Shown here one piece after another: positions 7,594-31,101 of a stretch of 43,721 nt of DNA. The notes under the pieces were generated by a model that was not told the DNA's origin, did no database searches, and saw only the letters and a list, made by a program, of their open reading frames with translations. The translations under genes and the position numbers were made by a program. Position 1 is the stretch's first letter, and each line of letters starts with the position of its first letter. The stretch is from a virus, in IMG/VR virus record IMGVR_UViG_3300020171_000060, positions 1-43,721 of that record; one strand, given 5' to 3'.

Positions 7594-10500
7594 CTATGCG
7601 ATATGGTCCCATCCGCCACTATCATTCTGCACTTCGATGGAACAGCGACACCGACCCAAGCAAGTCACGCTTCCAGCCGGCACAGTCGGCATGGAGGCCC
7701 AGCTATCATATTCACCTGCCAAGTCCGGGCAACCATAGTGAAACTCAGACTTCTTGCAGTGCTCGGCCGCCGGGTCCAGTACCCACCTGACACGTCTTGG
7801 CGGAAGACCTCGTTCTTCTCTGCTCTTACCCAAATCGGCTTCTCGCAAACCAGCCCCAGCAAAAATACTCTGCCAGAAAGCGCCGGCGTATCCAGACGGC
7901 TCAGTTCTCATAGATTCAAGCAATCCCAGTAGAGCTACACCGTCTAACTGGTATTCGTGCTTCGCCTCGAGATCATCCAGATGGCTGACTATCTTCTCCC
8001 TAATTCTCGGTATCAGACTTTCATCGACAAACTTATCATTCGTCTTGACCTGCTCATTGACCAGCTTATTACCCTGTTTATCCAGCGGGCCTTTATATCC
8101 TAACCTGACCGCCTCATCTATATGCTTAGCAGCAGCCGCCTTCAAGTCTCTAGCCAACGCCAAGAGCTGTTTATCCACTTCTTTGACCAATCCCCTCCGT
8201 TCACCTTCAGAGGCAGACAAAATGGCTTTCTGGGCTCTCTGGGACCACTTGTCATAAATATGCGTTAGGAGTCCCTGATACTCATTAGTGGCTCTGCCGG
8301 GCTTCGTTGTCGCCCTTCGACCCTTGATACCAGCTACCTCAGTATAACTACCCACCTCTACGACATCTTGTGATTGTTCTGACCACCTTTCCGGCACCGT
8401 GCCATTCTCTACCTTGCGCTCCTCAACAACCTGGTGACTCTCAGACTCAGCCTTCCATTCCTTATAGCATTTATCGCAGAACCAAGCTCTTGCGTTTCCC
8501 TCAGCCCAGAGGACTTCAACTGATGGTGCAGCGCTACAATTCATACACTGGTCACGGCGCTTCTTACCTATCGCGGTCGGGATATGCACTGAGCCAGGGT
8601 CAGGCTGGGCAAACTGACCGCCAAGTATAACTTTCTCTCGTTTATTACCTAAGCAAACATCAACATGGTCAACAACCATCTCCCCATCGGCAACAACATC
8701 AGGAGCCTTTTCACCTTGCTGCAGATACTGTAGCGTGATATGTGGTTGATATTTATAATCCTTCGAATATCCTAAATTGGCAAGGTCAAACGCCTTAGCC
8801 AATACAGACCGAAACTTTAACAATTCAGGGGACCCAACATAAGCTACGAACGGTGTTAGCCCCTCTTTGTTTACAGGGAAATTGCCAACCCCTGCAACTG
8901 CCACCTTGAACGGCTGAGTATTATCACAGACAGCCTTCGTGACCTTCATAATACTGCCGACATGAGCTTCGTCCATATCCTCGCCGTGGTAAGTCAACGT
9001 AATATGTAGATCATCGGGAGGCAATCCACCTTCTATGGCCAGTTTATTAGCCAGGCTTGCCTCAATAGGCACATCTACCATACATGAGCGATCGGATACA
9101 TACTCAGACCTCGGAATAGAAAACTTCCTATTGACCTCTCTCGGCTTAATCATCCAGCCACCGTCTGCCGTCTGATACCATTCATAGTTCAGAAATTGCG
9201 GGCCTAACGGTCCAGGTGGCTGCGGCTGATTTCTTGGGCCTACTCCTAATCCTTCCGGTCGGTCAGGCAATCCAGCCACTGCCCTCAAATAATCCTCTAG
9301 CTTCTCATCCGGCGTCAGCAGTTGAGCTGCCACCATCGCCTGCGCCGACTGCACCACCTTGGCTACATCCTTACTGCCAGGGTCAGCCCATTCAATAATC
9401 GGCATCCCTGAAGCGCCGGCAAGCATCCCCGGATTCATCGAAAACAGGAGCGGAACTAATTGCTGATTCCAGCACTCCTCTAATTCGTGCTGTATCGATT
9501 TCAAAGCCAAACTAAAGAAATCCTGAGAGCCTTCTACCAGTGCCTGTGTGCCGACCTGCTGCATACCCAACATCAAGAACTGGGCAAAAAACCTCATCAG
9601 GATTATCTTATTCAGGTCGTTGATGATTGCCCGAACATCGTACTGCTTCGAGCCAGGTGAGCCGAGAAGCTCAAACTTCCAACCGGGAGAATTGGCTTCA
9701 GGAGTCGGCGGAGCCGGTATGACTAGACCAGCTTCCTCATCTAATCTGAGATTGCGGATGAGCGTTTCGGCTGCTGCCTTATCAGCATCGGTAGCACCGT
9801 ATGGCAGATGGAAAACAGGTAGACCGCATAGGTCGCGTTCGGCTCCTATTGCCTCAATCACTTCGAGATTCTTTCTAGTATACCAGGCTCGATACAGCGA
9901 CCTTAACGGAGACGACCCTTCGGGAGACCTCTTCCTAGAGCGGAATGTAGCGTGGAGTAACTTCCAAGCCGGTATCGTAATCAGCTGACTGCTATTCGGG
10001 TCCTGCTGCACCATGGACTCGACCTTAAACTCCTCATCCATATTCCACTTATACAGCGTCTCCTGTCCCCTTGGGTCCAGAATATGCAAGCCAATCTTGC
10101 CATCAGTATACTGCGAAGGCGGACTGCCTTCAGGACCCATCCTCTTCTTGAACACCATCTCCGAAGCTGACCAGCCCCAGACCATCATCGACAAAACATC
10201 CAGAACGTGCTGCCTCCAACTATACTTTGTCATATCATTCATACAAGTTTCGAGGAACTCGGCATTATCCTTGTCTTTTTGTGATTCACCCGCCGGAGTC
10301 GTCTCAAACTCGGCTGCTAACAAGGGCATCCACATCGAATCCAAAAGAGTGCCGATAACAGCATCGTCCTGCATTTCCTTGAAAACCTTGGCCTTGCGAG
10401 TTCCCTTCAGAGATGTTAGATACTCTTCGCCTAAGACACCACTCCAAATTGACAAGCCGGTCACGCCAATCGTAATTCCTGAGTTACTTTTAGTTACCAT
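7594..10500 (-). CDS. portal fused to 2H phosphoesterase, zinc ribbon and gpF-like domain (968 aa)
   Basis: Residues about 1-440 look like a Mu gp29-type (DUF935) portal, the dodecameric ring through which DNA enters: DDAVIGTLLDSMWMPLLAAE, MMVWGWSASEMVFK, and a QYDVRAIINDLNKIILMRFF helix. Residues about 455-625 carry two HxT motifs 88 residues apart (His499-Ile-Thr, His587-Ile-Thr), the signature of 2H phosphoesterases, which include RNA ligase-like and cyclic-nucleotide-cleaving enzymes. Cys652/655/675/678 form a zinc ribbon. Residues about 760-968 resemble the gpF minor head protein, ending CLGRCRCSIEV. Portal plus gpF is known in Mu-like heads; the enzyme between them is unusual. A 20-codon leader frame overlaps its start. 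Confidence 0.8.
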   Translation of the reverse strand: MVTKSNSGITIGVTGLSIWSGVLGEEYLTSLKGTRKAKVFKEMQDDAVIGTLLDSMWMPLLAAEFETTPAGESQKDKDNAEFLETCMNDMTKYSWRQHVLDVLSMMVWGWSASEMVFKKRMGPEGSPPSQYTDGKIGLHILDPRGQETLYKWNMDEEFKVESMVQQDPNSSQLITIPAWKLLHATFRSRKRSPEGSSPLRSLYRAWYTRKNLEVIEAIGAERDLCGLPVFHLPYGATDADKAAAETLIRNLRLDEEAGLVIPAPPTPEANSPGWKFELLGSPGSKQYDVRAIINDLNKIILMRFFAQFLMLGMQQVGTQALVEGSQDFFSLALKSIQHELEECWNQQLVPLLFSMNPGMLAGASGMPIIEWADPGSKDVAKVVQSAQAMVAAQLLTPDEKLEDYLRAVAGLPDRPEGLGVGPRNQPQPPGPLGPQFLNYEWYQTADGGWMIKPREVNRKFSIPRSEYVSDRSCMVDVPIEASLANKLAIEGGLPPDDLHITLTYHGEDMDEAHVGSIMKVTKAVCDNTQPFKVAVAGVGNFPVNKEGLTPFVAYVGSPELLKFRSVLAKAFDLANLGYSKDYKYQPHITLQYLQQGEKAPDVVADGEMVVDHVDVCLGNKREKVILGGQFAQPDPGSVHIPTAIGKKRRDQCMNCSAAPSVEVLWAEGNARAWFCDKCYKEWKAESESHQVVEERKVENGTVPERWSEQSQDVVEVGSYTEVAGIKGRRATTKPGRATNEYQGLLTHIYDKWSQRAQKAILSASEGERRGLVKEVDKQLLALARDLKAAAAKHIDEAVRLGYKGPLDKQGNKLVNEQVKTNDKFVDESLIPRIREKIVSHLDDLEAKHEYQLDGVALLGLLESMRTEPSGYAGAFWQSIFAGAGLREADLGKSREERGLPPRRVRWVLDPAAEHCKKSEFHYGCPDLAGEYDSWASMPTVPAGSVTCLGRCRCSIEVQNDSGGWDHIA
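8526..8539. promoter_or_regulatory. palindrome copy inside portal gene
   Basis: GTGCAGCGCTACAA on the plus strand, 13 of 14 matches to TTGCAGCGCTACAA. It lies within the codons of the zinc ribbon (Cys-Ser-Ala-Ala), so it may be coincidence or a recruited site. Confidence 0.3.
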
Positions 10501-10768: not shown

Positions 10769-11293
10769 TTAGCCTTTTGGGCCTGTTATGTCAATGCTCT
10801 TCTGCCCAAACACATCCAGCACAGCCTGCCGATAGCCGCGGGTATACGACGCCAACTCAATGTATTCCTGCTGCCAATCAATCGATAACTCAGGACTGTC
10901 TTTATTCACTTTAGGCTTTGGGACTGGAACTGCAGGGACAATAGAACCTCCGGCAGCAACAATATCAGCAGCCCACTTCTTCTTTATCGTACACCAGCCC
11001 GATGCAGATATACCCCACTTCTCCAGCATAGCAACAGAACCTAGCTTGATAAAATCAGCTATAATCTCTGCCTTGTGAGACTCAATATCCCTGTGCTTCT
11101 GGTGCATATTGCCACCCTTTTTCTTTTGCTCAGGAACCATCTTATATTCCTCCTTCATACCATTTATTTGCCTATTTCTAATAACCACATCTTTGAGCAC
11201 TGACCTAGCATCAATAGGCTCTTTCTCGCGCTCTTTTTCAATTCGCTCCCTGTTTTTCTTGGCTTCATCTACATCAACAAAAGCCTCACTCAT
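10769..11293 (-). CDS. hypothetical protein with possible helix-turn-helix (174 aa)
   Basis: The first 70 residues are very charged (KKNRERIEKEREKE). Around residues 75-110 SHKAEIIADFIKLGSVAMLE and KWGISASGWCTIKKKW resemble a DNA-binding helix-turn-helix. The start overlaps the terminase stop by four bases (ATGA). Between large terminase and portal, it could be a packaging or head-assembly factor; this is positional inference. Confidence 0.55.
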   Translation of the reverse strand: MSEAFVDVDEAKKNRERIEKEREKEPIDARSVLKDVVIRNRQINGMKEEYKMVPEQKKKGGNMHQKHRDIESHKAEIIADFIKLGSVAMLEKWGISASGWCTIKKKWAADIVAAGGSIVPAVPVPKPKVNKDSPELSIDWQQEYIELASYTRGYRQAVLDVFGQKSIDITGPKG

Positions 11294-14200
11294 GCCTCAT
11301 CTCTTCTCCATATAGACTGCTTGCCAACGCCTGTCAATCCTTCAGTGCCAGTCACCACATGAATCCTTGCCCAATTCAAAAATTGTGTTACGCTATCCAC
11401 AATATCATCGTGAGTACCTTTGGGGAATGTCTCAAACTCATGCTCGAATACCGCACGCCAAGGCACATGTTCAGGAAGGAAAACCTTGCCCGCCTCGAAA
11501 AGTGGAGTTACAGCATTTGCCCGGGCTACTTTGTCCCTATCTACTGGCACGGCAATGACAGGTATTCTTGTGTTTGACCGAAGCTCTTGCAAAAGGCTTT
11601 GGCCACACCAAGCCGGCTTGCCATTTCGCCTAACATAAACAATACCATTCGGAACACTAACACAATGAATCATCCCGACATAATATACCTCATCAGCAGA
11701 AAAAGACATCGCACGGCTCCTACGTAAACCTATTTTGTAGACTTGCCTAAAGTTCTCCGGCGGGGTGCTCAACTTGTTACGACCTATAAGGACTGGCTTC
11801 GACGGTCGCTTCTTCTTATATGTGCTTGCCGAAAAGCCCATCTTTTGCGCTATCTCCACCAACTGTCCAGCTATACGCGGACTAACCGTAGTAATGTCTC
11901 GCAGATTTTGGCCGCCATCACCAAGCATATAATAATCCCAAAATAGGCTTAATTGCTGGGGGGTTGCATTTATAATCTCATCAGGAACATACTTGTCATA
12001 GGCATCATTGCCAAATTGAGCTACGTATTCAGCTAATCCGAGACTACAAATTATAAACCCATCATTATCATAATGAACCTCCCGCTTTATAATGGAAGAC
12101 AGCATTGTCTGAAATGCCCTAAAAGCTTTTGTATTCTGCTTACGTTGCGAGATAAACACATCATAATTCCTATTTGCAAAGTCAATCCGATACCACCCTT
12201 CAGATAGATACATTCCCATAAAAGCACAATACTCATCTCCAGTCATAAAAATTGGCTTTATCTCCCTCGGTGAAATCCTCCGCCCCAGCGTATCGAGTCT
12301 TTTACCGTATCTATTAGCCATTATAGCTTTGTCAGCATGAAATACTTTATCTCCAATTTCAACGCCATGCCATATTGATATCATTGGAATTGAAATATGA
12401 GAACCAGACTTATAACCGACCAGTTCGTTTGCCTCGACAATCACATCGCCTTTACGATAACTGTTACCGCCCAGCTTCCTAGGAAGGCTAGTAACTAGCA
12501 TACGGTGGTCAGGAGTCACCAACAAATCTATCGGTCGGCTATGGAAATGAATCATTGGACCAGCATAATCTTTATCAAGCCTTGCTGTTGCCTTCTGCCA
12601 TTCAAACTCTGTAGTGACGATATTACGAGTCGCAAACTCATCAGAATCTATATTTACATTTGGGAAGCAGAGCCAGCCACGCTTGGTTAGAATCTCAGTA
12701 TCTGATGAATAACACTGGCCAGAGGCTGCATCCTCAATCAACACAGCCATAGGACGATACTGCTCATAAACCGCATTTGCTGCCCGCTTCAGTTCCGGGA
12801 AGCCAACTCGATTGCGGTACATATCAACAAGATAAAAGCCATTCGCCAATACATTCCAAGTCGTTCCGACTGAGTAATCGTTCGAGGTTTTCTCCTTGAA
12901 TCCAGTATCCCATGACTGAACTACACCAGTTACCGGCATATTTCTTTCACCTTCCAGTTGCCAAGGAGCTTCACCTTGCTTCCAATACCGCCACCATTGC
13001 CTTTCAAATATACCGCCCGCCATTGAAGCCACATTGCGCTGAAACATCATCTCAAAGCCCCGGAATCCTAAATCGTTCAGGCGTTCATTTAAGGCATCGA
13101 GAGTCCAAAATCCAGGGTATGTCAATTCGCCATCGGCGATGATCAATTTCCCATCCTGCTCGGTATAAAGCGGATTCTCTATTGCTGGAATACTCAAGAC
13201 AACCCATCCATCTTTTTCAAATTCTGCCGCTGGGTCATTTTCATGCCAGCGCGTCATAATGGCAACAGCCCGCCCGCCCGGAACCAGACGGCTCATTGCC
13301 GTTGTCCTTATCCATTCCATCAACTTCTGCCGTTGGTATTCCGTGGCCATATTCTCAGCGTCGCAATTATGTGATACCATCAATGGACTGCAGTAACTAG
13401 ATGCGTCAGCCACAGTCAAATTCACGACTTCGCGCTCATCTTTTATCATTTTTAAGGACTTAATTGGCACAAGCACCTGATTATTCCGAAAACAACCATA
13501 AACTCTCCGCGGGGCTTCCTTTGCCATCCCAGTTATTAAGGCAGATAAATCCGGACCACACCGTAACTTATATGCTCTATTATTAGACTTAAACGACGTA
13601 CCAGACTGAATATATCCACCTATGCCCCCAAGAATGCCAAATCTCATTAACATCAATTGGACTTGGGCTAATAATTCGTATGAGATACTCGCAAAGGTAA
13701 AGCCACCTCTGACGGATTTATTCCCATCTCCCCGAAAATAACCTTTAATCAATTCAGCAAGATAACTAAGTGGTAAACCCAATACCCACATTGGGCATCT
13801 TTTCATGCCTTTCTTTCTGAATTGTCCCTGTAGCCATAAGCTTAACCGCTTATCAGTGATTATCACTGTGGTACTATTCCGCGGACCTGGGGTCCGTGTA
13901 GCCTTTCGGTTCAGCACACTCCGAGATATTTCCTCAATATCAATGGGCCACGATTCTTTAACATTAAAAGAGAAACGAACATAACCGCGACCAGAATCGC
14001 CCTTAGCTAACCAGTAACCAACTAGCCGCCAAAAGAGCGGGTGATTCAAATAATTTTTTTGTTCCAAACCTTTATGTTGACCAACACTCACCTTGACTTT
14101 GAGAATGTTCTCCCATTCATTATCCAAATCCGGTGATGATAATTGGGGGACAGGAAAAGAAAGATAATCATTTTTATTGAGGTCTCGAGCACAAACCCAA

Positions 14201-14949
14201 TCGGCCGACTTTATCTTCTTACGCCGAAACTGCCCTCGACCAACAAGAAGTCGGTGTTCTGGTGTAACGATATAGGAGTCAGGACAATATACAGGGCGAA
14301 TAGCCATACAGTCACGTACTCTGCGATGGCTGACTCTCGTAACTCGATGCAATTTTCCATCCTGACCCATAACACATTGACCTACCGAGACCTCGCCAGC
14401 AGCGGACAATCCACCTTCGGTCCAGATTGGCGTTTCAGAGTCAACACAGATATCATCAAAAACCACTTCCTGAACTGTACCGCCGAGAACTGGACCGCCC
14501 ACACCAGTAGCTTGAAGGGTCGGGTCCTTGTCAGCCTCGTTCTTCCTTTTGATAAACCACTCATTCTCACCCCAACCCTTGTTTACATCAGGATTCACAT
14601 TATAAAGGAAGCGATAGTTCTTGTTATAAGCTATCGTGTCACGGAGGGCTACGCTATATTTGTTTGCCTGCGTAGCAGTATTCGACACGTAGATGCAATG
14701 GTAACCTTCCGGGTCACTCCCAATGCGCCAGCCCAGATAATCACCAATCACAGGCGACTTGCCCCATTTCGGCGGGGCGATAATCAGAAGACGCTTAATC
14801 GACTGGTCCTCGAGAGCCTCTGCCCATATTAGCTGATGATAAGGCATACTGTAGCCGTGGACAAACCTGGTATGCCACCTTAGCCGGCTCTTTATGAGCT
14901 GCCGGTACTGTTCTATCTCTGGGGGCAATCCTGCCAATACTTCACTCAC
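11290..14949 (-). CDS. terL: large terminase subunit with two inteins (1219 aa)
   Basis: Motor and nuclease that pack DNA into the head. Walker A is APPKWGKS (58-65); Walker B ends VVFDDI (162-167). Nuclease acids are Asp681 (SWDTGF), Glu739/Asp740 (LIEDAASGQ) and Asp1181/1182 (THDDIVDS). Residues 168-528 and 746-1117 are inteins, so the mature enzyme would have 486 residues, the usual size. One intein sits directly after Walker B, the other in the second nuclease motif; splicing gives FDDI-CDAENM and ASGQ-SLLQEL. Translation starts at GTG 14949, about 13 bases from GAAGGAG and overlapping the stop of a 19-codon frame. The small subunit is not certain. Confidence 0.9.
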   Translation of the reverse strand: MSEVLAGLPPEIEQYRQLIKSRLRWHTRFVHGYSMPYHQLIWAEALEDQSIKRLLIIAPPKWGKSPVIGDYLGWRIGSDPEGYHCIYVSNTATQANKYSVALRDTIAYNKNYRFLYNVNPDVNKGWGENEWFIKRKNEADKDPTLQATGVGGPVLGGTVQEVVFDDICVDSETPIWTEGGLSAAGEVSVGQCVMGQDGKLHRVTRVSHRRVRDCMAIRPVYCPDSYIVTPEHRLLVGRGQFRRKKIKSADWVCARDLNKNDYLSFPVPQLSSPDLDNEWENILKVKVSVGQHKGLEQKNYLNHPLFWRLVGYWLAKGDSGRGYVRFSFNVKESWPIDIEEISRSVLNRKATRTPGPRNSTTVIITDKRLSLWLQGQFRKKGMKRCPMWVLGLPLSYLAELIKGYFRGDGNKSVRGGFTFASISYELLAQVQLMLMRFGILGGIGGYIQSGTSFKSNNRAYKLRCGPDLSALITGMAKEAPRRVYGCFRNNQVLVPIKSLKMIKDEREVVNLTVADASSYCSPLMVSHNCDAENMATEYQRQKLMEWIRTTAMSRLVPGGRAVAIMTRWHENDPAAEFEKDGWVVLSIPAIENPLYTEQDGKLIIADGELTYPGFWTLDALNERLNDLGFRGFEMMFQRNVASMAGGIFERQWWRYWKQGEAPWQLEGERNMPVTGVVQSWDTGFKEKTSNDYSVGTTWNVLANGFYLVDMYRNRVGFPELKRAANAVYEQYRPMAVLIEDAASGQCYSSDTEILTKRGWLCFPNVNIDSDEFATRNIVTTEFEWQKATARLDKDYAGPMIHFHSRPIDLLVTPDHRMLVTSLPRKLGGNSYRKGDVIVEANELVGYKSGSHISIPMISIWHGVEIGDKVFHADKAIMANRYGKRLDTLGRRISPREIKPIFMTGDEYCAFMGMYLSEGWYRIDFANRNYDVFISQRKQNTKAFRAFQTMLSSIIKREVHYDNDGFIICSLGLAEYVAQFGNDAYDKYVPDEIINATPQQLSLFWDYYMLGDGGQNLRDITTVSPRIAGQLVEIAQKMGFSASTYKKKRPSKPVLIGRNKLSTPPENFRQVYKIGLRRSRAMSFSADEVYYVGMIHCVSVPNGIVYVRRNGKPAWCGQSLLQELRSNTRIPVIAVPVDRDKVARANAVTPLFEAGKVFLPEHVPWRAVFEHEFETFPKGTHDDIVDSVTQFLNWARIHVVTGTEGLTGVGKQSIWRRDEA
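11599..12714 (-). mobile_element. intein 2 in terminase nuclease domain (372 aa)
   Basis: Begins with Cys746 (CYSSDTEILTKRGW), has the TxxH block B (Thr812...His815), two LAGLIDADG-type motifs (FMGMYLSEGW near 910-919 and YYMLGDGG near 1006-1013), and ends NGKPAWCGQ before Ser1118. The last residue is Gln instead of the usual Asn and the residue before it is Gly instead of His, so the final cyclisation step would use glutamine. The homing endonuclease domain seems intact. Confidence 0.85.
13366..14448 (-). mobile_element. intein 1 in terminase ATPase domain (361 aa)
   Basis: Begins with Cys168 (CVDSETPIWTEGG), shows block B VTPEHRLL (Thr229...His232), two LAGLIDADG-type motifs (LVGYWLAKGD, 309-318; LIKGYFRGDG, 400-409), and ends SPLMVSHN before Cys529. 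This is a standard Cys/HN/Cys intein with an apparently complete homing endonuclease. It is inserted just after the Walker B aspartates, a highly conserved target. Confidence 0.9.
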
Positions 14950-20425: not shown

Positions 20426-20743
20426 TTACCGCCCTTTTAATATCTTATAACGTTGCCATCGTCCCGGGTAGCGGTTCTCCAGCCACCATTGCGCCGCCTG
20501 CCAATTTTCCGATGCCGCCTTCTGAATGATAGCGACATTTCTTGCCTCTGCCTCAGCTTCTGCCCGGCTTATGCCTGTTTGTAATTGTCCATAAATGCTA
20601 TCGGGTTTATCATCAGCGAGCCCCTGCCATGCCTTGTAGGTCTCTGCATCTATACCACAGGATAGACAGGCTATATCAATATAACTCCCAGATCTTACCA
20701 AATCAATTATTCTAGCCATAAGTTCAGGCACTAATTCAGTCAA
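20426..20743 (-). CDS. terminase small subunit-like or HTH protein (105 aa)
   Basis: TTG start; overlaps the methyltransferase gene by eight bases. Contains a helix-turn-helix-like GSYIDIACLSCGIDAETYKA followed by SRAEAEAEARNVAIIQKAAS and NWQAAQWWLENRYPGRW. This pattern resembles proteins often annotated as phage terminase small subunits or DNA-binding homologues. It is far from terL, so a regulatory role is equally possible. Confidence 0.6.
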   Translation of the reverse strand: MTELVPELMARIIDLVRSGSYIDIACLSCGIDAETYKAWQGLADDKPDSIYGQLQTGISRAEAEAEARNVAIIQKAASENWQAAQWWLENRYPGRWQRYKILKGR

Positions 20744-21989
20744 TCTTTATCGCCTTCTTACCAGTAAAATTCTGCCAGCGTTGAATTATTACATCGCAGT
20801 ATCTAGGCTCTAGTTCTAATCCGTAACATCGTCTGCCTAACTTTTCACACGCAATAAACTGTGTCCCGCTACCCGCAAAAGGCTCGTAACAGATTTCATT
20901 TATTCTGGTATGGTTATTTATTGGGATTTCAAACAAAGCAACTGGCTTCTGTGTTGGGTGTAATTTATCGTTTTCACGAGATATTTCCCAGACATCAGAT
21001 TGATTCCGTTCCCCATAAAAAGAACACTTCCCACCACCTTGAAGCCAGCCATGTAAAGCCCACTCGCAGCGGGGGTGATAATGCAACCTACCTATGACAA
21101 AACTAGGCTTAACCCAAATTATAGGCTGGTGGATTAAATAGCCAGCATCTACCATTGCTTGCTCAAACAGCATACGTTTGGCACGGTGCCAAACGTATGC
21201 TGGAAATGGCGGGGGCCCTGCCGCACGAGCCGCTATGAGAAAGTCATAGATAAACTGCTTTAGTTCATAGCCAGTTTTATCATCGGAAGCTATTGAGCCG
21301 TGCCGTTCGGCACGGCTATGTCCATAGCCGTGCGCATGCATATCTCTTGCTTTCTGCACCCATGAATCGCCATAAGGCGGGTCAGTAGCCATCAAGACTG
21401 CTTTCTCGCCATTCATTAAGCGGTCAACATCCTCTTTCTTCGTGCTATCGCCACAAAGTAAGCGGTGGCAAGTTTTAGGGTCATCCCCCAACTGCCACAA
21501 ATCCCCAGTCTTACAGATGATTTCAACCTTGTCAGGTATCTCGTCATCAGGAGTTAAGCCTTGTTGTGGTATTGCAAACTGGCTAATTATTTTGTCCAAT
21601 TCATTAGAATCGAAGCCGGCAAGTGTAGCATCCAATCCCGAATCCTTGAAATCAGCAAGCAAGTCAGCAAGAGCGGGCATATCCCAGTCCGTCTCGTCCT
21701 GAAGCCTATTATCAGCCAGCATATATAACTCAGCCTGCTTACCCTTGAGAGGTAAAAAGATAGCGGGTACTGTCTCCAATCCCGCCTTAATTGCTGCCTT
21801 TAATCTCGCATGTCCAGCCAGAATATAACCATCCACTGATACTAATATGGGATTAGTCCAGCCAAACTCTTTGATACTTACCACCAATTTATTGATAGCT
21901 GAATCTGGATGTACACGAGGATTCTTGGGATGAGGCTTGAGTTCGCCAATTGGAACTTGTCTGAATTCAATTCCTTTTTGGGCTTTCAC
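20736..21989 (-). CDS. ParB-domain DNA methyltransferase (417 aa)
   Basis: Residues 10-100 form a ParB/Srx-like domain (IGELKPHPKNPRVHP, GYILAGHARLKAA, MLADNRLQDE). Residues 155-417 are an amino-methyltransferase of the DPPY class: catalytic DPPY (203-206), YVWHRAK, IIWVKPSF, HPTQKP (344-349) and SAM-binding FAGSGT (371-376). It probably methylates adenine or cytosine N4 in DNA; the site is unknown and no restriction nuclease is adjacent, so an antirestriction role is likely. GTG start after CAGGAGTTGAT, directly after a palindrome copy. The gene contains exceptional inverted repeats. Confidence 0.9.
   Translation of the reverse strand: MKAQKGIEFRQVPIGELKPHPKNPRVHPDSAINKLVVSIKEFGWTNPILVSVDGYILAGHARLKAAIKAGLETVPAIFLPLKGKQAELYMLADNRLQDETDWDMPALADLLADFKDSGLDATLAGFDSNELDKIISQFAIPQQGLTPDDEIPDKVEIICKTGDLWQLGDDPKTCHRLLCGDSTKKEDVDRLMNGEKAVLMATDPPYGDSWVQKARDMHAHGYGHSRAERHGSIASDDKTGYELKQFIYDFLIAARAAGPPPFPAYVWHRAKRMLFEQAMVDAGYLIHQPIIWVKPSFVIGRLHYHPRCEWALHGWLQGGGKCSFYGERNQSDVWEISRENDKLHPTQKPVALFEIPINNHTRINEICYEPFAGSGTQFIACEKLGRRCYGLELEPRYCDVIIQRWQNFTGKKAIKID
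21168..21202. repeat. 35-bp near-perfect palindrome in methyltransferase gene
   Basis: Two 17-bp arms (CAGCATACGTTTGGCAC and its complement) pair without mismatch around a single G at 21185. In mRNA this would be a very stable hairpin; in DNA a possible cruciform. It encodes the conserved YVWHRAK region. Confidence 0.85.
21296..21333. repeat. two overlapping inverted repeats in methyltransferase gene
   Basis: AGCCGTGCCG-TT-CGGCACGGCT (21296-21317) and GCACGGCTATG-TC-CATAGCCGTGC (21310-21333). They share bases 21310-21317, so the two hairpins exclude each other, as in a switch. Confidence 0.8.
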
Positions 21990-24785: not shown

Positions 24786-25583
24786 CTAAAATAGTTCCTT
24801 AATATCCCTCTCGGCTTGTGCTACATCAAAAGGCGGTCGGGGAAATACCCCGATAGCGACAGCCAACCACTTCTTCAAGTCAAGTTTTACGAAATACTCT
24901 TTATGGAGCTTCTCCAAGAGGTTGACTGCCCTATGCCCATAATTAGCCCAGTCTATCTCTTTTGATCGGGGGTGATAATTGAGGATACCGAGCTTGTATT
25001 TGTTGACAAACTCATGGGTCATCCTGATTAGTTCAAGACTCTGCTCAGGATATAAGACTGGCTCTAAGGATACCCAGGTATAGATTCCCCTGGCATAGGC
25101 TTCTTTTAGGCTCTCAATTCGCTCTGAGGGCATTGCTGCACCTGGCTCCCATTCCTTAGACTGAGCCTCATCTACACAGGTCAGGGTGACTGCGAACTCA
25201 TCTCCAGCTTTTAATAGGGACATATCAGGTAGCGCCCGGTATCCGCCTTTGGTTAAGATTGCTACCGACTGTCCGTAGAAGTGCAGGACTTCGATAGCCT
25301 GTCTTGCTAATTGGAACTGGTCATTGATAGGCTGGTAGCAATCTCCAATGAAAGACAGAAGCACTTTATGGTGTCCAGTAATTTTAAGCACCTCAGCATC
25401 CCGTTTAAGAGATTCTAAGAATCTCGGCCGAGGGGCAGGCGTTACAAAAAAGTCCTCCTTGCTGATATGTAGTGTCTGGGGAGAGTAACAATACACACAT
25501 TTATGCATGCAGCGTAGATAGATATTGCAAGCCAATTCGCAGTATTCTTTTGCCCTCCCTTGGGGGCTATAAATAACGTGCAT
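24786..25583 (-). CDS. radical SAM protein, SPL-like (265 aa)
   Basis: The cluster motif CxxxCxxC is at Cys25, Cys29, Cys32 (CMHKCVYCYS). Further order HKVLLSFIGDCYQPIND, QSVAILTKGGYRALPD, FAVTLTCVDE, and YTWVSLEPVLYPEQSLELI fits the (beta/alpha) barrel of spore-lyase-like radical SAM enzymes. It probably binds one 4Fe-4S cluster and SAM; the substrate in phages is unknown, perhaps modified nucleic acid. The start is right after the HNH gene; a 25-codon copy of its beginning lies upstream of that gene. Confidence 0.85.
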   Translation of the reverse strand: MHVIYSPQGRAKEYCELACNIYLRCMHKCVYCYSPQTLHISKEDFFVTPAPRPRFLESLKRDAEVLKITGHHKVLLSFIGDCYQPINDQFQLARQAIEVLHFYGQSVAILTKGGYRALPDMSLLKAGDEFAVTLTCVDEAQSKEWEPGAAMPSERIESLKEAYARGIYTWVSLEPVLYPEQSLELIRMTHEFVNKYKLGILNYHPRSKEIDWANYGHRAVNLLEKLHKEYFVKLDLKKWLAVAIGVFPRPPFDVAQAERDIKELF

Positions 25584-25584
25584 A

Positions 25585-26142
25585 TCATTGCTCCTTCTTG
25601 TGTATTTTCCTATGGCATTCAGCGCATAAGGTTATTCCATTCTCTACTACAAATCTCAATTCTGGATATTCGGCAAACGGCTTTTTATGATGTGGATGAA
25701 GTTGAGGTCGATTCCCAACCTCATGTTTTGCACCACATTGCTGACAAGTATAATTATCCTTGGCAAAGACGGCGACACGCCATTGCTTAAATTCAGATGA
25801 TTGCCGGATAATTTCATTTACTGGGCTAATTCCCCCTTTCCAGTTTCTTCCGTTTTCCCCCTTGTTGGCTAAACTCATCTTTTCTCGGTATTCTTGGGTG
25901 TGGTGTCTACCTGTCCAAGTTTTAAGTCTCTCTCTTTCAATCGGATTCTTAAAAAGTTCCTTTAGTGTATTGGATATTTTCTGCTTTTGCTCTGGTGACA
26001 TTGGCCCCTTGGGGATTCGCATCGCTGCCCTTGCATATTCTGGCATTTTCTTGCCAGTCCAATATCCTGGTTTTCCTTTCATGGCAACGGATAATTTCCG
26101 TTTATGTTCTTCGCTCTTAGGTATCCCTGGATTTCCTTTCAT
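25585..26142 (-). CDS. HNH endonuclease with NUMOD3-like repeats (185 aa), leaderless start
   Basis: ATG at 26142 (MKGNPGIPKSEEHKRK) is selected because a promoter -10 box ends six bases before it. The N-terminal part has NUMOD3-type DNA-binding motifs (KRKLSVAMKGKPG; REKMSLANKGENG). The C-terminus has HNH features: YTCQQCGAKH, LHPHHKKPFAEYP, ITLCAECHRKIH. It sits within the 5' end of the radical SAM gene. A homing endonuclease is by far the best explanation. Confidence 0.85.
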   Translation of the reverse strand: MKGNPGIPKSEEHKRKLSVAMKGKPGYWTGKKMPEYARAAMRIPKGPMSPEQKQKISNTLKELFKNPIERERLKTWTGRHHTQEYREKMSLANKGENGRNWKGGISPVNEIIRQSSEFKQWRVAVFAKDNYTCQQCGAKHEVGNRPQLHPHHKKPFAEYPELRFVVENGITLCAECHRKIHKKEQ

Positions 26143-26148
26143 ATAACA

Positions 26149-26177
26149 AGTATAACACAGTAGAAAGATTAAGTCAA
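26149..26177 (-). promoter_or_regulatory. promoter of NUMOD3-HNH gene
   Basis: TTGACT (26177-26172), 17-bp spacer, TATACT (26154-26149), six bases before the ATG. The -35 lies inside the truncated radical SAM fragment. Nearly the same as the promoter at 18255-18283. Confidence 0.75.
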
Positions 26178-26246
26178 GTATAGATTGGCTGCCCATGCAC
26201 AATACTCAGCGGCTCTGCCTTTAGGCTGATAAATTACTCTTAGCAT
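26169..26246 (-). pseudogene. truncated start of a radical SAM gene (25 codons)
   Basis: MLRVIYQPKGRAAEYCAWAA then NLYLT-stop matches the intact gene's opening MHVIYSPQGRAKEYCELACN. The match ends at the HNH promoter. The copies differ in DNA, so the intact gene or the HNH unit probably came from a divergent phage by recombination. Confidence 0.75.
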
Positions 26247-26611
26247 AGTATCCCTATCCTTTCTCTTTTTTGGGCAGTATCAAAAAAGCCTAACTGAATA
26301 GATTGCTTGCCTAGGCTTGGGGTTTTGACTATATTGGCGGCCGCTCGTATTATTATCTGTTCCCTGTCGGATAGCAGATTAAGTTCCTCGACAAGCATCG
26401 AAAGGACGGCGTTCTGCTCTTCGATTCGGATATCTATGCCAATGATGTCATCGGCGTATTGGTCGTATGCTGCCCATTCTGGGTTATTGGCTTGAGTTTT
26501 CTGGAGACGCTGAAGGCGTCTCACCGTTAGCATCCTCTCCGCCTCGATGCTCTCTCTATATTCTTGGCAAACAGCAAGGGTGAACTTTCCAACAATTATC
26601 TTATCTAACAT
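26240..26611 (-). CDS. hypothetical helical protein (123 aa)
   Basis: Long helices with Glu/Arg (CQEYRESIEAERMLTVRRLQ; IGIDIRIEEQNAVLSMLVEE), then NLLSDREQIIIRAAAN, a phrase like a sigma/HTH helix. It overlaps the ParB gene end and the fragment downstream. Possible coiled-coil partner of ParB; inference from position. Confidence 0.5.
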   Translation of the reverse strand: MLDKIIVGKFTLAVCQEYRESIEAERMLTVRRLQRLQKTQANNPEWAAYDQYADDIIGIDIRIEEQNAVLSMLVEELNLLSDREQIIIRAAANIVKTPSLGKQSIQLGFFDTAQKRERIGILC

Positions 26612-27453
26612 AATGACGCCATCCTTCTATTCTGGAGACTGGATTTGAACTGCCCGACCAGTTTATACAGCATCTCTATTTTTTCTTGCGTTATGTCCAG
26701 CTTTTCCGCAATCGCCTGAGCAGTGATTCCGGGGTTATCATATTCCAATTTATTGATTTCTGTGAAGGCTTGGCAGGCTCGGTCTAATGCCGTTTCAACC
26801 TTATGCCTAGCCTCTATCTCTTTGTCTGATAGTTTTGGCTCTTCAGCAAACATCTCTATCTGGTTTTCTTCTGCCTGTATCTTCTCACAAAGACCGCGAC
26901 ATTCCGAGACCGATAGTTTATTCTGCTGCATTACTCGGAGTGACCTGAGCTGGCCATCATCACTTAGTTTGCTTTGGGCAATAGCCACCACTAAGGATAT
27001 TTGACTATGCTTGACCATGTGCTGTATTTCTGGCCGGCACTTGTTGACATTCAGTAGCCAGCTAATAGTATTGATTGGCTTACCCACAACCTCACTTAGC
27101 TCTACTAGGGTGTGCCCTGAGTCAAGATAACTTTTATAAGCCTCGGCCACTTCCATCGGATTAAGGTCTACCCGGTTGATATTCTCGATTAGCTGGAGTT
27201 CCTTAGCCGAGTCGCCATTATAGACGATGCACTCTATCGTTTCCCATTCCAGTGAACAGACCGCCCGGTAGCGCCGCTCCCCGGCAACGATGATATAGCC
27301 GTCTCCATTCTTCTTGACTGTAATTGGTTGGAGCAAGCCGTTCCGTTTGATAGATTGCGCCAACTCAAAGATGCCCTCTTCATTAAAATCCTTGCGCGGC
27401 TGTGTCGGGTCTGGACTGATAGCTTGTATCGGTATCTGTCTGATTTCCCTCAT
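26605..27453 (-). CDS. parB: ParB/RepB-family partition or regulator protein (282 aa)
   Basis: The start is ATG 27453 (MREIRQIPIQAISPDPTQPR), overlapping the previous stop by four bases; the longer frame has no ParB similarity before this point. ParB box: IVAGERRYRA and LQLIENINRVDLNPMEVAEA, followed by a helix-turn-helix TLVELSEVVGKPINTISWLL. A C-terminal helical part may dimerise. No parA is seen, so it may be a DNA-binding regulator or one half of plasmid-like partition. The repeated 14-bp palindrome is a candidate target. Confidence 0.85.
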   Translation of the reverse strand: MREIRQIPIQAISPDPTQPRKDFNEEGIFELAQSIKRNGLLQPITVKKNGDGYIIVAGERRYRAVCSLEWETIECIVYNGDSAKELQLIENINRVDLNPMEVAEAYKSYLDSGHTLVELSEVVGKPINTISWLLNVNKCRPEIQHMVKHSQISLVVAIAQSKLSDDGQLRSLRVMQQNKLSVSECRGLCEKIQAEENQIEMFAEEPKLSDKEIEARHKVETALDRACQAFTEINKLEYDNPGITAQAIAEKLDITQEKIEMLYKLVGQFKSSLQNRRMASLC

Positions 27454-27653
27454 TTCCCCGCTCCACCTAGTAGCATTCTTGCCATCGTATGAATGTCTAT
27501 TGGCTGACCTTGACCTTCCGGGTAGACAATGCCAACAACCACCCTCGCCGTTGGGAAGCCTATCCTTTTGAGGCAGTTCTCCATCATGGCGCTGTCTTTG
27601 TCCGAGCTGGTATTTGTGTCCGCTAATCCTTGTAACCATTCCCTTGCTGTCAT
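27450..27653 (-). CDS. hypothetical protein before ParB (67 aa)
   Basis: MTAREWLQGLADTNTSSDKD, then RIGFPTARVVVGIVYPEGQG. First gene of the promoter at 27702-27730; GGGAGGTAAAGGG precedes ATG. Its stop overlaps the ParB start, so the two are coupled and may act together. Confidence 0.6.
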   Translation of the reverse strand: MTAREWLQGLADTNTSSDKDSAMMENCLKRIGFPTARVVVGIVYPEGQGQPIDIHTMARMLLGGAGK

Positions 27654-27774: not shown

Positions 27775-28014
27775 CTAAGCCTCCGGCTTTTCATCTAGTT
27801 CTCCCTGACTAGACTCCACTTTATTGCCGGCTGCATCGACCAGATATATTTCTTTGCGTTCCTTAGCAGTGGCGAATAATTGTGCTTCATAAACTCTATC
27901 GCCATCGACCAGAGAACCATTTTCAATAGCTTTCCTTAATTCCTCTCCACCGATAATGTGCGCACCACCTTGGGCACCAATGACTACGTAGGTTTTTTTA
28001 CTATATATACGCAT
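27775..28014 (-). CDS. hypothetical protein (79 aa)
   Basis: MRIYSKKTYVVIGAQGGAHI, then GSLVDGDRVYEAQLFATAKE. A small alpha/beta protein with acidic C-terminus; AAGGAGGTAATCA before ATG. No family recognised. Confidence 0.5.
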   Translation of the reverse strand: MRIYSKKTYVVIGAQGGAHIIGGEELRKAIENGSLVDGDRVYEAQLFATAKERKEIYLVDAAGNKVESSQGELDEKPEA

Positions 28015-28092: not shown

Positions 28093-28470
28093 TTATTTAA
28101 TTCCAGTTTCTATTAGATAACCAAATTTACCAACTTCACGCAGATAATCATCATTCGACTGAGGATTATGACTGTAAATAACAAGACAATTACCAACCAT
28201 CTCCTCATTCAAGAGTATGCGTATGCCAAGCATTCCCTCGATTCTGTATTTATGAATGGGCGGCATCGGAATCCTTCGTGAATGTTCCTTATGAAAATCC
28301 ACTACTAGTGGATGATTCAGGAAAATATCCAATACCTTTTTACTCATAACAAGAAGATTAGGCTTTTTGCCACAAGCCAATAATACCTTTTCCCTTGCCT
28401 TTTCTATATCCGCTAATGGGTCAGAATATATGAAGTTATCCCAAGGAGAGATACATTTGCCAGAATCCAT
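28093..28470 (-). CDS. stand-alone capsid peripheral-domain homologue (125 aa)
   Basis: Residues 8-60 align without gaps to about residues 147-199 of the major capsid protein: SDP..DIE.AREKV matches SDPISNIETAREAV, KKPNLLVMSKKVLD matches RNPNVLLMGAEVWD, and the HP and D..K that follow are kept. About 20 of 53 positions are identical by hand count. The weaker match continues through IEGMLGIRILLNEEMVGN. The N-arm, extended loop and axial domain are missing. It has its own ribosome site (AAAAGGAGGAAAGC) and an upstream promoter-like TTGACA. It could interfere with competing capsids, act in capsid sizing, or be a remnant under selection. Confidence 0.75.
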   Translation of the reverse strand: MDSGKCISPWDNFIYSDPLADIEKAREKVLLACGKKPNLLVMSKKVLDIFLNHPLVVDFHKEHSRRIPMPPIHKYRIEGMLGIRILLNEEMVGNCLVIYSHNPQSNDDYLREVGKFGYLIETGIK

Positions 28471-28570
28471 GCTTTCCTCCTTTTACTTATTATAAACTCT
28501 CAATCCAGGCTCATTGAAGAATCGATTGAAATCTCGTTCCCATAGATGTAGAAGTGCATAATGTCAAGTA

Positions 28571-29797
28571 TTATTGAGGGGTTATTCTCAAGGATTCCTC
28601 TATGTATATTTCCACGCCAGGAATCTCTGGTATTCCAGCCCTAACTACTTTATTGAGCAAAAGCGAGTTCTCAATCTTATATTGGTCAGGCAACTTTGCA
28701 AAGTCAACCACTCTATATTTTCTGGTTTTCACCAAACCGCTTGTGCCAACTTCTGTCCTTGTTAATCGTGGTGCTTCGGGTATTTTGACCGGAGTTACGT
28801 CCACAGTAAACTCGCCATGATTCAACGCCGCCTGTTTTCGTGCCAACTCTATTGCCTGTCTATTGACCTCCTCAGCCTCCTGCCGGCGCCTGTCCTGTTC
28901 CACCTTATAAGCAGTTACCTTATCCCTAGCTGTTTTGTCTGCCTGGGCCAGCGGGCCTGTCAGCAACTTAAACGCGCCGTTTACAGCATCCACATGGGCA
29001 TTAAGCGGGCCGACATATTCCTGCCTCTTCTCCTCGACGGCCTTCTTGAGCTTGCCCATAATGCTGAGGTCAGAAGTAGCCAGCTTGGCGTCATCCTCGC
29101 TGGCAACGACCAGTTTATCAGCCCATTCCTTAATCCGCATTATTTCGCCAAGAAGCTGCTGGACCTTCAAGTCCTTGCCAGGCTCTATCCTGACAACTGC
29201 CGTGGGGAACGCCTGCGGAACCACTACGGCTTCCTCTTCTTCCCGAACCACCTCACCAGCCGTAGAGTTGCCTTCCTGCTTCAACCACGGTTCGCCAGTC
29301 GTCGCCACCCTAGTCTGACCTGCTGCATCTGCGGTTGATTGCCTAGCCTGACCTTCGATAGAGTTCTTGCTAAATTCTATTTCAGCTTCCAGATGGGCAT
29401 TTAATCTTTCGATGTTGGCTTCATCGATAAATCTCGCTGATATTTTTGTTAATTCAGGGTCTATTCTCAGTTTGACAATAGAACCAGCCGGTATTGTCTT
29501 GACCTTATCCTTGAAAGCCTGTATCTCAGATTCCGGGACATCTATAGCGGTCACCCGAGCCTTGCCAGTGGTATCTCTTATTGGGACCCAAACAACATCG
29601 CCCACCTTCAATCGGTCTACCGAGTAGTATGTATACTCCCGGGCACTCAGCTTCCCTGTCGTTTCCGAGTAATACCTGATCTTGACTATCTGCTTGACTG
29701 ACCTTGCCCTTTCTAGTCTAGCCTCTATCATGCACCTTTCGCATCCTTCCCCTAAGATAAACTCTCCGTGCTTACAATGACCCTTCTTTTGATCCAT
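28571..29797 (-). CDS. coiled-coil protein with N-terminal Cys/His site (408 aa)
   Basis: Residues 8-25 (CKHGEFILGEGCERCM) may bind metal. A beta-rich part includes GDVVWVPIRDTTGKARVT. Residues about 230-325 are a charged helix (GKLKKAVEEKRQEYVGPLNA; AQADKTARDKVTAYKVEQDR), with a basic/hydrophobic end. Similar helical proteins are seen near phage recombination genes, but no specific function can be assigned. It is the largest unknown early gene and a candidate for nucleic-acid handling. Confidence 0.55.
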   Translation of the reverse strand: MDQKKGHCKHGEFILGEGCERCMIEARLERARSVKQIVKIRYYSETTGKLSAREYTYYSVDRLKVGDVVWVPIRDTTGKARVTAIDVPESEIQAFKDKVKTIPAGSIVKLRIDPELTKISARFIDEANIERLNAHLEAEIEFSKNSIEGQARQSTADAAGQTRVATTGEPWLKQEGNSTAGEVVREEEEAVVVPQAFPTAVVRIEPGKDLKVQQLLGEIMRIKEWADKLVVASEDDAKLATSDLSIMGKLKKAVEEKRQEYVGPLNAHVDAVNGAFKLLTGPLAQADKTARDKVTAYKVEQDRRRQEAEEVNRQAIELARKQAALNHGEFTVDVTPVKIPEAPRLTRTEVGTSGLVKTRKYRVVDFAKLPDQYKIENSLLLNKVVRAGIPEIPGVEIYIEESLRITPQ

Positions 29798-30282: not shown

Positions 30283-31101
30283 TCATTTTATCTCCCCAAT
30301 AACTGTCACCTTCCGGCATCGCACTTTGCCAGAAAGACAACAGATAATATCCTCCAACTTGACCAAAACCGCTATCAAAGTATCTCCCTCAGTATAATAA
30401 AATGGGGTCGAGGCGTGTATCCCTCTTCCGCAATCCACATCTGTGTTTTCGTCAGGATTTATGGCTATGGATTCCTTGCCATCCTCATAGATAAACTCCG
30501 AATCGTAGCACGATTTGTAATGTCCTGCCTCGATTTTATTTACTCGTTTGTAGAGTGTATATGACCCAAAAGTAGGATAGATATTTAGAGAGCAGGCGAT
30601 TGCTGTCTGAAGATTAGCCTTGAAATCAATGGTGAATCTCCCAAAAGAGACCCAAGCATTGCCATAGACCCTAGCATCGCCATAGACCCTAGCATTGCCA
30701 TAGACCCTAGCATCGCCAGAGACCCTAGCATTGCCAGAGACCCTAGCATCGCCAGAGACCCTAGCATTGCCAGAGACCTGAGCATTGCCATAGACCTGAG
30801 CATTGCCAGAGACCCTAGCATTGCCAGAGACCTGAGCATTGCCATAGACCCTAGCATCGCCAGAGACCCTAGCATCGCCAGAGACCCTAGCATTGCCAGA
30901 GACCCTAGCATTGCCAGAGACCCTAGCATCGCCATAGACCCAAGCATCGCCATCATCGGAGAGGTTTTTGGTGGACTCAATATATCCACCAATCTCAGCC
31001 TTAGCGACTATCCCAAATGCTTTTCTCGCCTTGATACGATATAAAGGTTTACCATCCAGAGATAGCCTCGTGTCTGTTTTAACTATGGTATATTTTTTCA
31101 T
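30283..31101 (-). CDS. hexapeptide-repeat beta-helix protein (272 aa)
   Basis: Residues 51-152 are 17 perfect six-residue repeats of G[DN]A[RQW]V[SY], expected to form a left-handed or similar beta helix. The flanks are unrelated; the C-terminal 110 residues contain CYDSEFIYEDGKESIAINPD and ADPST-like loops with several Cys. Comparable proteins are found in phages and bacteria, often annotated by the repeat only. The changing Tyr/Ser pattern and repeat number may alter a binding face. Confidence 0.75.
   Translation of the reverse strand: MKKYTIVKTDTRLSLDGKPLYRIKARKAFGIVAKAEIGGYIESTKNLSDDGDAWVYGDARVSGNARVSGNARVSGDARVSGDARVYGNAQVSGNARVSGNAQVYGNAQVSGNARVSGDARVSGNARVSGDARVYGNARVYGDARVYGNAWVSFGRFTIDFKANLQTAIACSLNIYPTFGSYTLYKRVNKIEAGHYKSCYDSEFIYEDGKESIAINPDENTDVDCGRGIHASTPFYYTEGDTLIAVLVKLEDIICCLSGKVRCRKVTVIGEIK
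30646..30951. repeat. 17 tandem 18-bp coding repeats
   Basis: Repeat unit reads like GCCAGAGACCCTAGCATT on the plus strand with a few switch positions (CATAGACC/CAGAGACC, ATC/ATT, CTG/CCT). Length change by slippage or recombination would stay in frame. A second open frame across the repeats is only a shadow of this periodicity. Confidence 0.85.

Follow-up and report, generated by a model that had tools for sequence, protein, structure and literature searches.

Lone A-domains of capsid-type proteins are already known from some microbes. Family 4 (A-domain) encapsulins (PF08967/ENCP4) are proteins of about 100 residues that consist of the A-domain with all other domains missing, and they include PF0899 of P. 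furiosus (structure 2PK8); these cellular proteins of thermophiles are mostly encoded in operons with metabolic enzymes (PMC8346489). A capsid homologue of another kind is Ccm of SaPIbov5, a satellite-encoded, full-length protein of 355 aa with all domains, which forms whole pentamers and redirects capsid size; A-domains pack around the center of pentamers and hexamers, those of Ccm and CP tightly so (PMC8569155). Interference with virion assembly is described for Tab (tail assembly blocker), which a prophage encodes and which keeps invading phages from completing virions by targeting tail assembly via the tape measure protein, with no capsid relation claimed in the available part of the source (PMC10884400).

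The window analyzed here, a 43,721-nucleotide stretch of viral DNA (IMG/VR record IMGVR_UViG_3300020171_000060), contains a small gene whose 125-residue product is probably a solitary A (axial) domain without N-arm, E-loop, or P-domain, as judged largely from modeling (Table 1). Similar to Family 4 encapsulins, the product is free-standing, close to their length of about 100 residues, and apparently built from the HK97 A-domain alone, but it is phage-borne and related to phage_cap_E. PF08967 gave no match to the protein at E-values up to 1, and none in the window as a whole, where the search was a weak one whose control set gave no matches either. In the archaeal operon types, Family 4 genes lie downstream of a hydrogenase, OsmC, GAPDH, or DeoC gene, whereas the neighbors here encode a 408-aa protein upstream and a 79-aa ORF and ParB downstream; the protein resembles Family 4 encapsulins in form, but neither its sequence nor its gene context places it in that family. 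The A-domain of Ccm (7rwz) superposes on our model (Z 8.1), and Ccm, too, is a capsid homologue whose gene is separate from the coat gene of the capsid that it joins; the full fold of a Ccm-type size redirector (P-domain plus E-loop) is absent from a protein that is only A-domain-sized. The likeness to Tab is that of a phage-encoded blocker of an invader's virion assembly, which is the role proposed below. The nearest relatives in sequence and fold are Bordetella BB3626 (3bjq) and the phage_cap_E/phrog_1005 head proteins, which differ in having the other domains as well, as capsid-type proteins of full length (about 315 aa).

A previous sequence-only reading of the window had held that no example of such a protein is established, which was too strong given the A-domain-only proteins of thermophilic archaea (PMC8346489) and the redirection of capsid size by Ccm (PMC8569155). 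Literature searches did not find a published lone capsid domain in phages, and within the searches reported here the lone A-domain occurs in this phage and nowhere else among phages.

Table 1. Coordinates of the small gene, its parts, its neighbors, and the capsid gene of the same phage.
Feature	Position	Strand	Basis
Solitary HK97-fold A-domain-like protein (probable), 125 aa	28093..28470	-	Intact ATG ORF, capsid homology, predicted structure, coding score
Ribosome binding site AAAGGAGG	28476..28483	-	Minus-strand sequence; ends 5 bases before the ATG at 28470
Stretch homologous to capsid protein, codons 7-67; A-domain helices and first strand	28270..28452	-	BLASTP 23/61; conserved invariants
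Codons 68-125, modeled as closing part of the A-domain; P-domain strand excursion absent	28096..28269	-	Model only
Upstream 408-aa protein, partial match to exonuclease-labeled PHROG	28571..29797	-	phrog_10477, E 8.6e-9; synteny anchor
Downstream 79-aa ORF, no assigned family	27775..28014	-	ORF list
ParB-like partition protein, next downstream	26605..27639	-	ParB_N, E 2.3e-24
Full-length major capsid protein of the phage, 314 aa	3461..4405	-	phrog_1005, E 6.6e-81, whole length

Homology and predicted fold

The frame is intact from its ATG to its end, and the strong ribosome site that had been noticed from the sequence was confirmed 5 bases ahead of the start. At 0.114 per codon, its codon score falls inside the span of 29 presumed phage genes (0.06-0.32) and exceeds those of all 34 opposite-strand ORFs (top score 0.026). 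The GC content is 37%, against 46% for the window, and lies in a local trough. The flanks of 100 and 78 bases are too small for further capsid remnants, and none were detected in them.

By sequence, the 125-aa protein is homologous to phage_cap_E/phrog_1005 capsid proteins. Pairwise BLASTP aligned it without gaps to the phage's own capsid protein at 23 of 61 positions (E 4e-13), slightly stronger than the roughly 20 of 53 identities counted by hand in the sequence-only reading. The similarity extends to profiles, where that reading had suggested looking for it: the phrog_1005 major head protein matches with an E-value of 3.5e-10 (residues 10-65 on profile positions 149-203), phrog_29 matches with 3.6e-6, and an HMM built from 51 capsid proteins gathered for this analysis scores 43 bits. 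Pfam Phage_cap_E (PF03864) reached an E-value of 0.0085, which is below its curated cut-off; the top PDB sequence match is the capsid-like 3bjq (phmmer E 0.0016), and the best matches in phage records are capsid proteins or proteins without a name. Residues W10, S16, P18, H53, and P54 correspond to capsid invariants (W, S-x-P, HP) kept across 36 sequences. For residues 68-125, similarity to the capsid HMM, PHROGs, or other families searched was not detected, and the alignment score of the C-terminal half against the capsid profile was reached by 16 of 300 shuffles and is marginal at best.

Which part of the capsid protein is represented is indicated by the location of the match and by structure prediction. 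A helix-rich stretch of the capsid protein at about 107-132, taken by inspection as the P-domain spine helix, precedes the match, which starts at residue 144. The AlphaFold model (m089ec111b2b2; input alignment of 35 capsid proteins) has a pLDDT of 78.4 and a pTM of 0.74, whereas a single-sequence prediction without capsid rows was poor (pLDDT 40); because the model was fed capsid rows, its fold for residues 68-125 is partly conditioned on them. The top fold match cited is 3bjq (residues 139-312; Z 14.2), and many encapsulins are also among the matches. The model further aligns with HK97 residues 241-383 (Z 8.8) and superposes on 92 of the 94 residues of 2pk8 (Z 9.3, rmsd 3.0), an A-domain-only protein that is absent from the input alignment and so gives partly independent support. 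A MAFFT alignment places the C-terminal end of the protein on the capsid C-terminal strand, with the intervening P-domain strand region absent.

Since the model aligns with this portion of HK97 and with nearly all of 2pk8, the product is most plausibly a lone axial domain; the A-domain fold of residues 68-125 is a model-based prediction. The sequence-only reading had correctly proposed a fold comparison with HK97-type capsids and the absence of arm and E-loop, but it described a peripheral domain lacking the axial one, and these two labels were reversed. We reject the peripheral-domain reading on the fold alignments and on the location of the match after the presumed spine helix. The gene is also not that of a complete major capsid protein, as it has only 125 codons, starts its match at capsid residue 144, and has only four in-frame codons between the previous stop and its ATG.

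Distribution, divergence, and genomic neighborhood

With the single protein as query, no relatives of the solitary gene were found in viral contigs or bacterial genomes. An alignment-based scan of viral contigs identified 26 loci, in which every capsid-HMM match was either a capsid-sized frame or a frame truncated by a contig end. When the capsid A-domain stretch was compared with 50,697 phage records, 165 matches were obtained in 165 records, one place in each, and none of these records held a second, solitary copy. A 61-column profile gave 63 matches in 989 bacterial genomes from three phyla, all in open frames of at least 308 aa, with no solitary copy among them. Rarity is judged here by sequence only: the weaker fold matches of the model include several small viral proteins (78-161 aa; examples are H9YS96, H6WG95, A0A516KNT4, and A0A6J7VQR9), some of which may be fragments, and which are leads and unconfirmed members.

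The protein is highly divergent: its tip branch measures 1.73 changes per column, where the median is 0.2, and its amino-acid make-up is odd. A tree from 62 columns cannot place it. Grouping with the clade of the phage's own capsid protein was not rejected (p-AU 0.29), and that capsid protein itself groups with two other phages (support 98/96). A recent duplication of the own capsid gene is not supported, given the 38% identity, the long branch, and the grouping of the own capsid with these other phages. Divergence without stop codons and with the invariants kept argues for selection, because drift without constraint would be expected to introduce stops over a branch of this length; the argument assumes that a large share of the divergence arose once the gene had been truncated.

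Some 24 kb separate the gene from the head genes. It sits between a recombination-type gene and ParB, with replication genes (O-like and DnaC-like) further upstream, and it is probably expressed early. The location beside ParB and away from the head genes had been described correctly in the sequence-only reading, and the profile similarity and the intact frame support its central idea, that a capsid domain is encoded on its own among early genes. The ParB gene has its own strong promoter-like site at 27730-27702 (11 of 12 matches). The 79-aa ORF between ParB and the small gene has no Pfam or PHROG family and no relative among viral contigs.

Conservation of the locus in related contigs, a check that had also been suggested, could be followed through the 408-aa protein, which has homologues in nine viral contigs. 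None of these yielded a relative of the solitary gene; the genes after the 408-aa gene vary by contig, none of them is capsid-like, and the locus behaves like a variable accessory-gene site. The contigs with a ParB relative (L083) and a 408-aa relative (L023) both terminate near this slot. They come from one sample (3300014613) and end on the two sides of the equivalent locus (L083 7-603, ParB relative, 83% identity; L023 9484-10852, 408-aa relative, 44%), so the corresponding slot of a relative may have fallen into an assembly gap.

Possible functions

The best explanation overall, which we put forward tentatively, is that of a free-standing, capsid-derived A-domain that interferes with head assembly. 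It would have originated from a phage_cap_E-type capsid protein that lost the N-arm, E-loop, spine helix, and P-domain strands and then diverged for a long time. From an early-region accessory gene, a soluble A-domain would be produced that may bind the A-domains of coat proteins and, once bound, may cap or poison coat subunits or capsomers. Its most likely use would be against related phages that compete or superinfect, whose head assembly it would disturb; less likely, it would regulate the size or timing of the phage's own heads. A soluble A-domain could cap capsomers because A-domains pack at the capsomer center and because the two main A-domain helices provide the major contacts among the subunits within a facet (PMC8346489); the conserved half of the protein holds the corresponding helices in our model. 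Ccm and Tab provide precedents for the redirection of assembly and for the blocking of virion assembly, respectively, and interference is favored over a structural role, given a gene that is accessory, probably early, and removed from the head genes. The hold of a lone A-domain on capsomers without E-loop and P-domain may be weak, and interference with superinfection would be most useful in a lysogen.

The same features could also fit a relic, that is, a capsid fragment brought in by recombination, open by chance and without function. The failure to find relatives in viral contigs and bacterial genomes, the very long branch, the odd composition, and the low GC content are all in keeping with such a fragment, but we consider it rather unlikely, given 125 codons that stay open despite high divergence with capsid invariants kept, a strong ribosome site with coding-like codon use, frame ends that coincide neatly with both ends of the modeled domain, and short flanks without room for, or trace of, other capsid pieces. 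It also seems unlikely that the protein is an adaptor or scaffold in the manner of Family 4 A-domain encapsulins, forming small rings or binding an early phage enzyme and not a coat protein. PF0899 is the closest free-standing structural match, in P. furiosus an A-domain encapsulin is stably complexed with GAPDH (PMC8346489), and the adjoining genes are of recombination and partition type and not head genes; however, a PF08967 match is lacking, none of the four known partner enzymes adjoins the gene, and the sequence is recognizably near phage capsids and not Family 4.

Less probable still is a role in the virion, as a minor subunit or vertex component assembling together with the phage's own capsid protein in the way that Ccm occupies pentamers (PMC8569155). 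The position of A-domains at capsomer centers would suit such a component, whereas the distance from the head genes, the probable early expression, and the lack of the parts by which subunits are held in the shell (P-domain, spine helix, and E-loop) would not, and Ccm itself is a full-length capsid protein. We give little credence to a decoy that binds coat-protein-recognizing host immune sensors of the CapRel type without activating them: CapRel(SJ46) contacts the A-domain of the coat protein (PMC9712102), early expression would come before that of the coat protein, and an Acb1-like, anti-CBASS-type domain in the phage's portal makes counter-defense plausible, but the coat protein activates CapRel and does not block it.

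Interference with head assembly stands as the preferred reading. Stated more broadly, the gene could possibly represent a capsid axial domain turned independent early protein, acting on the coat proteins, or coat-protein sensors, of rivals or hosts. If true, it would be a one-domain, capsid-derived weapon or decoy and the phage counterpart of the archaeal A-domain encapsulins. Should it disturb assembly, the product would amount to a compact inhibitor of capsid origin.

Other features of the window

Further features lie on the minus strand. The portal protein (7594-10500; 968 aa) contains an inserted 2H-phosphoesterase domain at about residues 482-610, with matches to 2_5_RNA_ligase2 (E 8.5e-12) and to the anti-CBASS Acb1 family (E 4e-5); the relatives L021 and L027 are without this insert. 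The terminase large subunit (11290-14949; 1219 aa) carries an intein with a LAGLIDADG endonuclease at about 167-528 and a second large insert at about 787-1115, judged against shorter relatives. A ParB N-terminal domain is fused to an N6/N4 DNA methylase at 20736-21989, separate from the ParB gene in Table 1, and at 24786-26202 a radical SAM protein adjoins a NUMOD3/HNH homing-type endonuclease. The product of 30283-31101 has many near-exact ARVSGNARVSGDARVYG-type repeats, is beta-helix-like, and matches phage families without assigned function.
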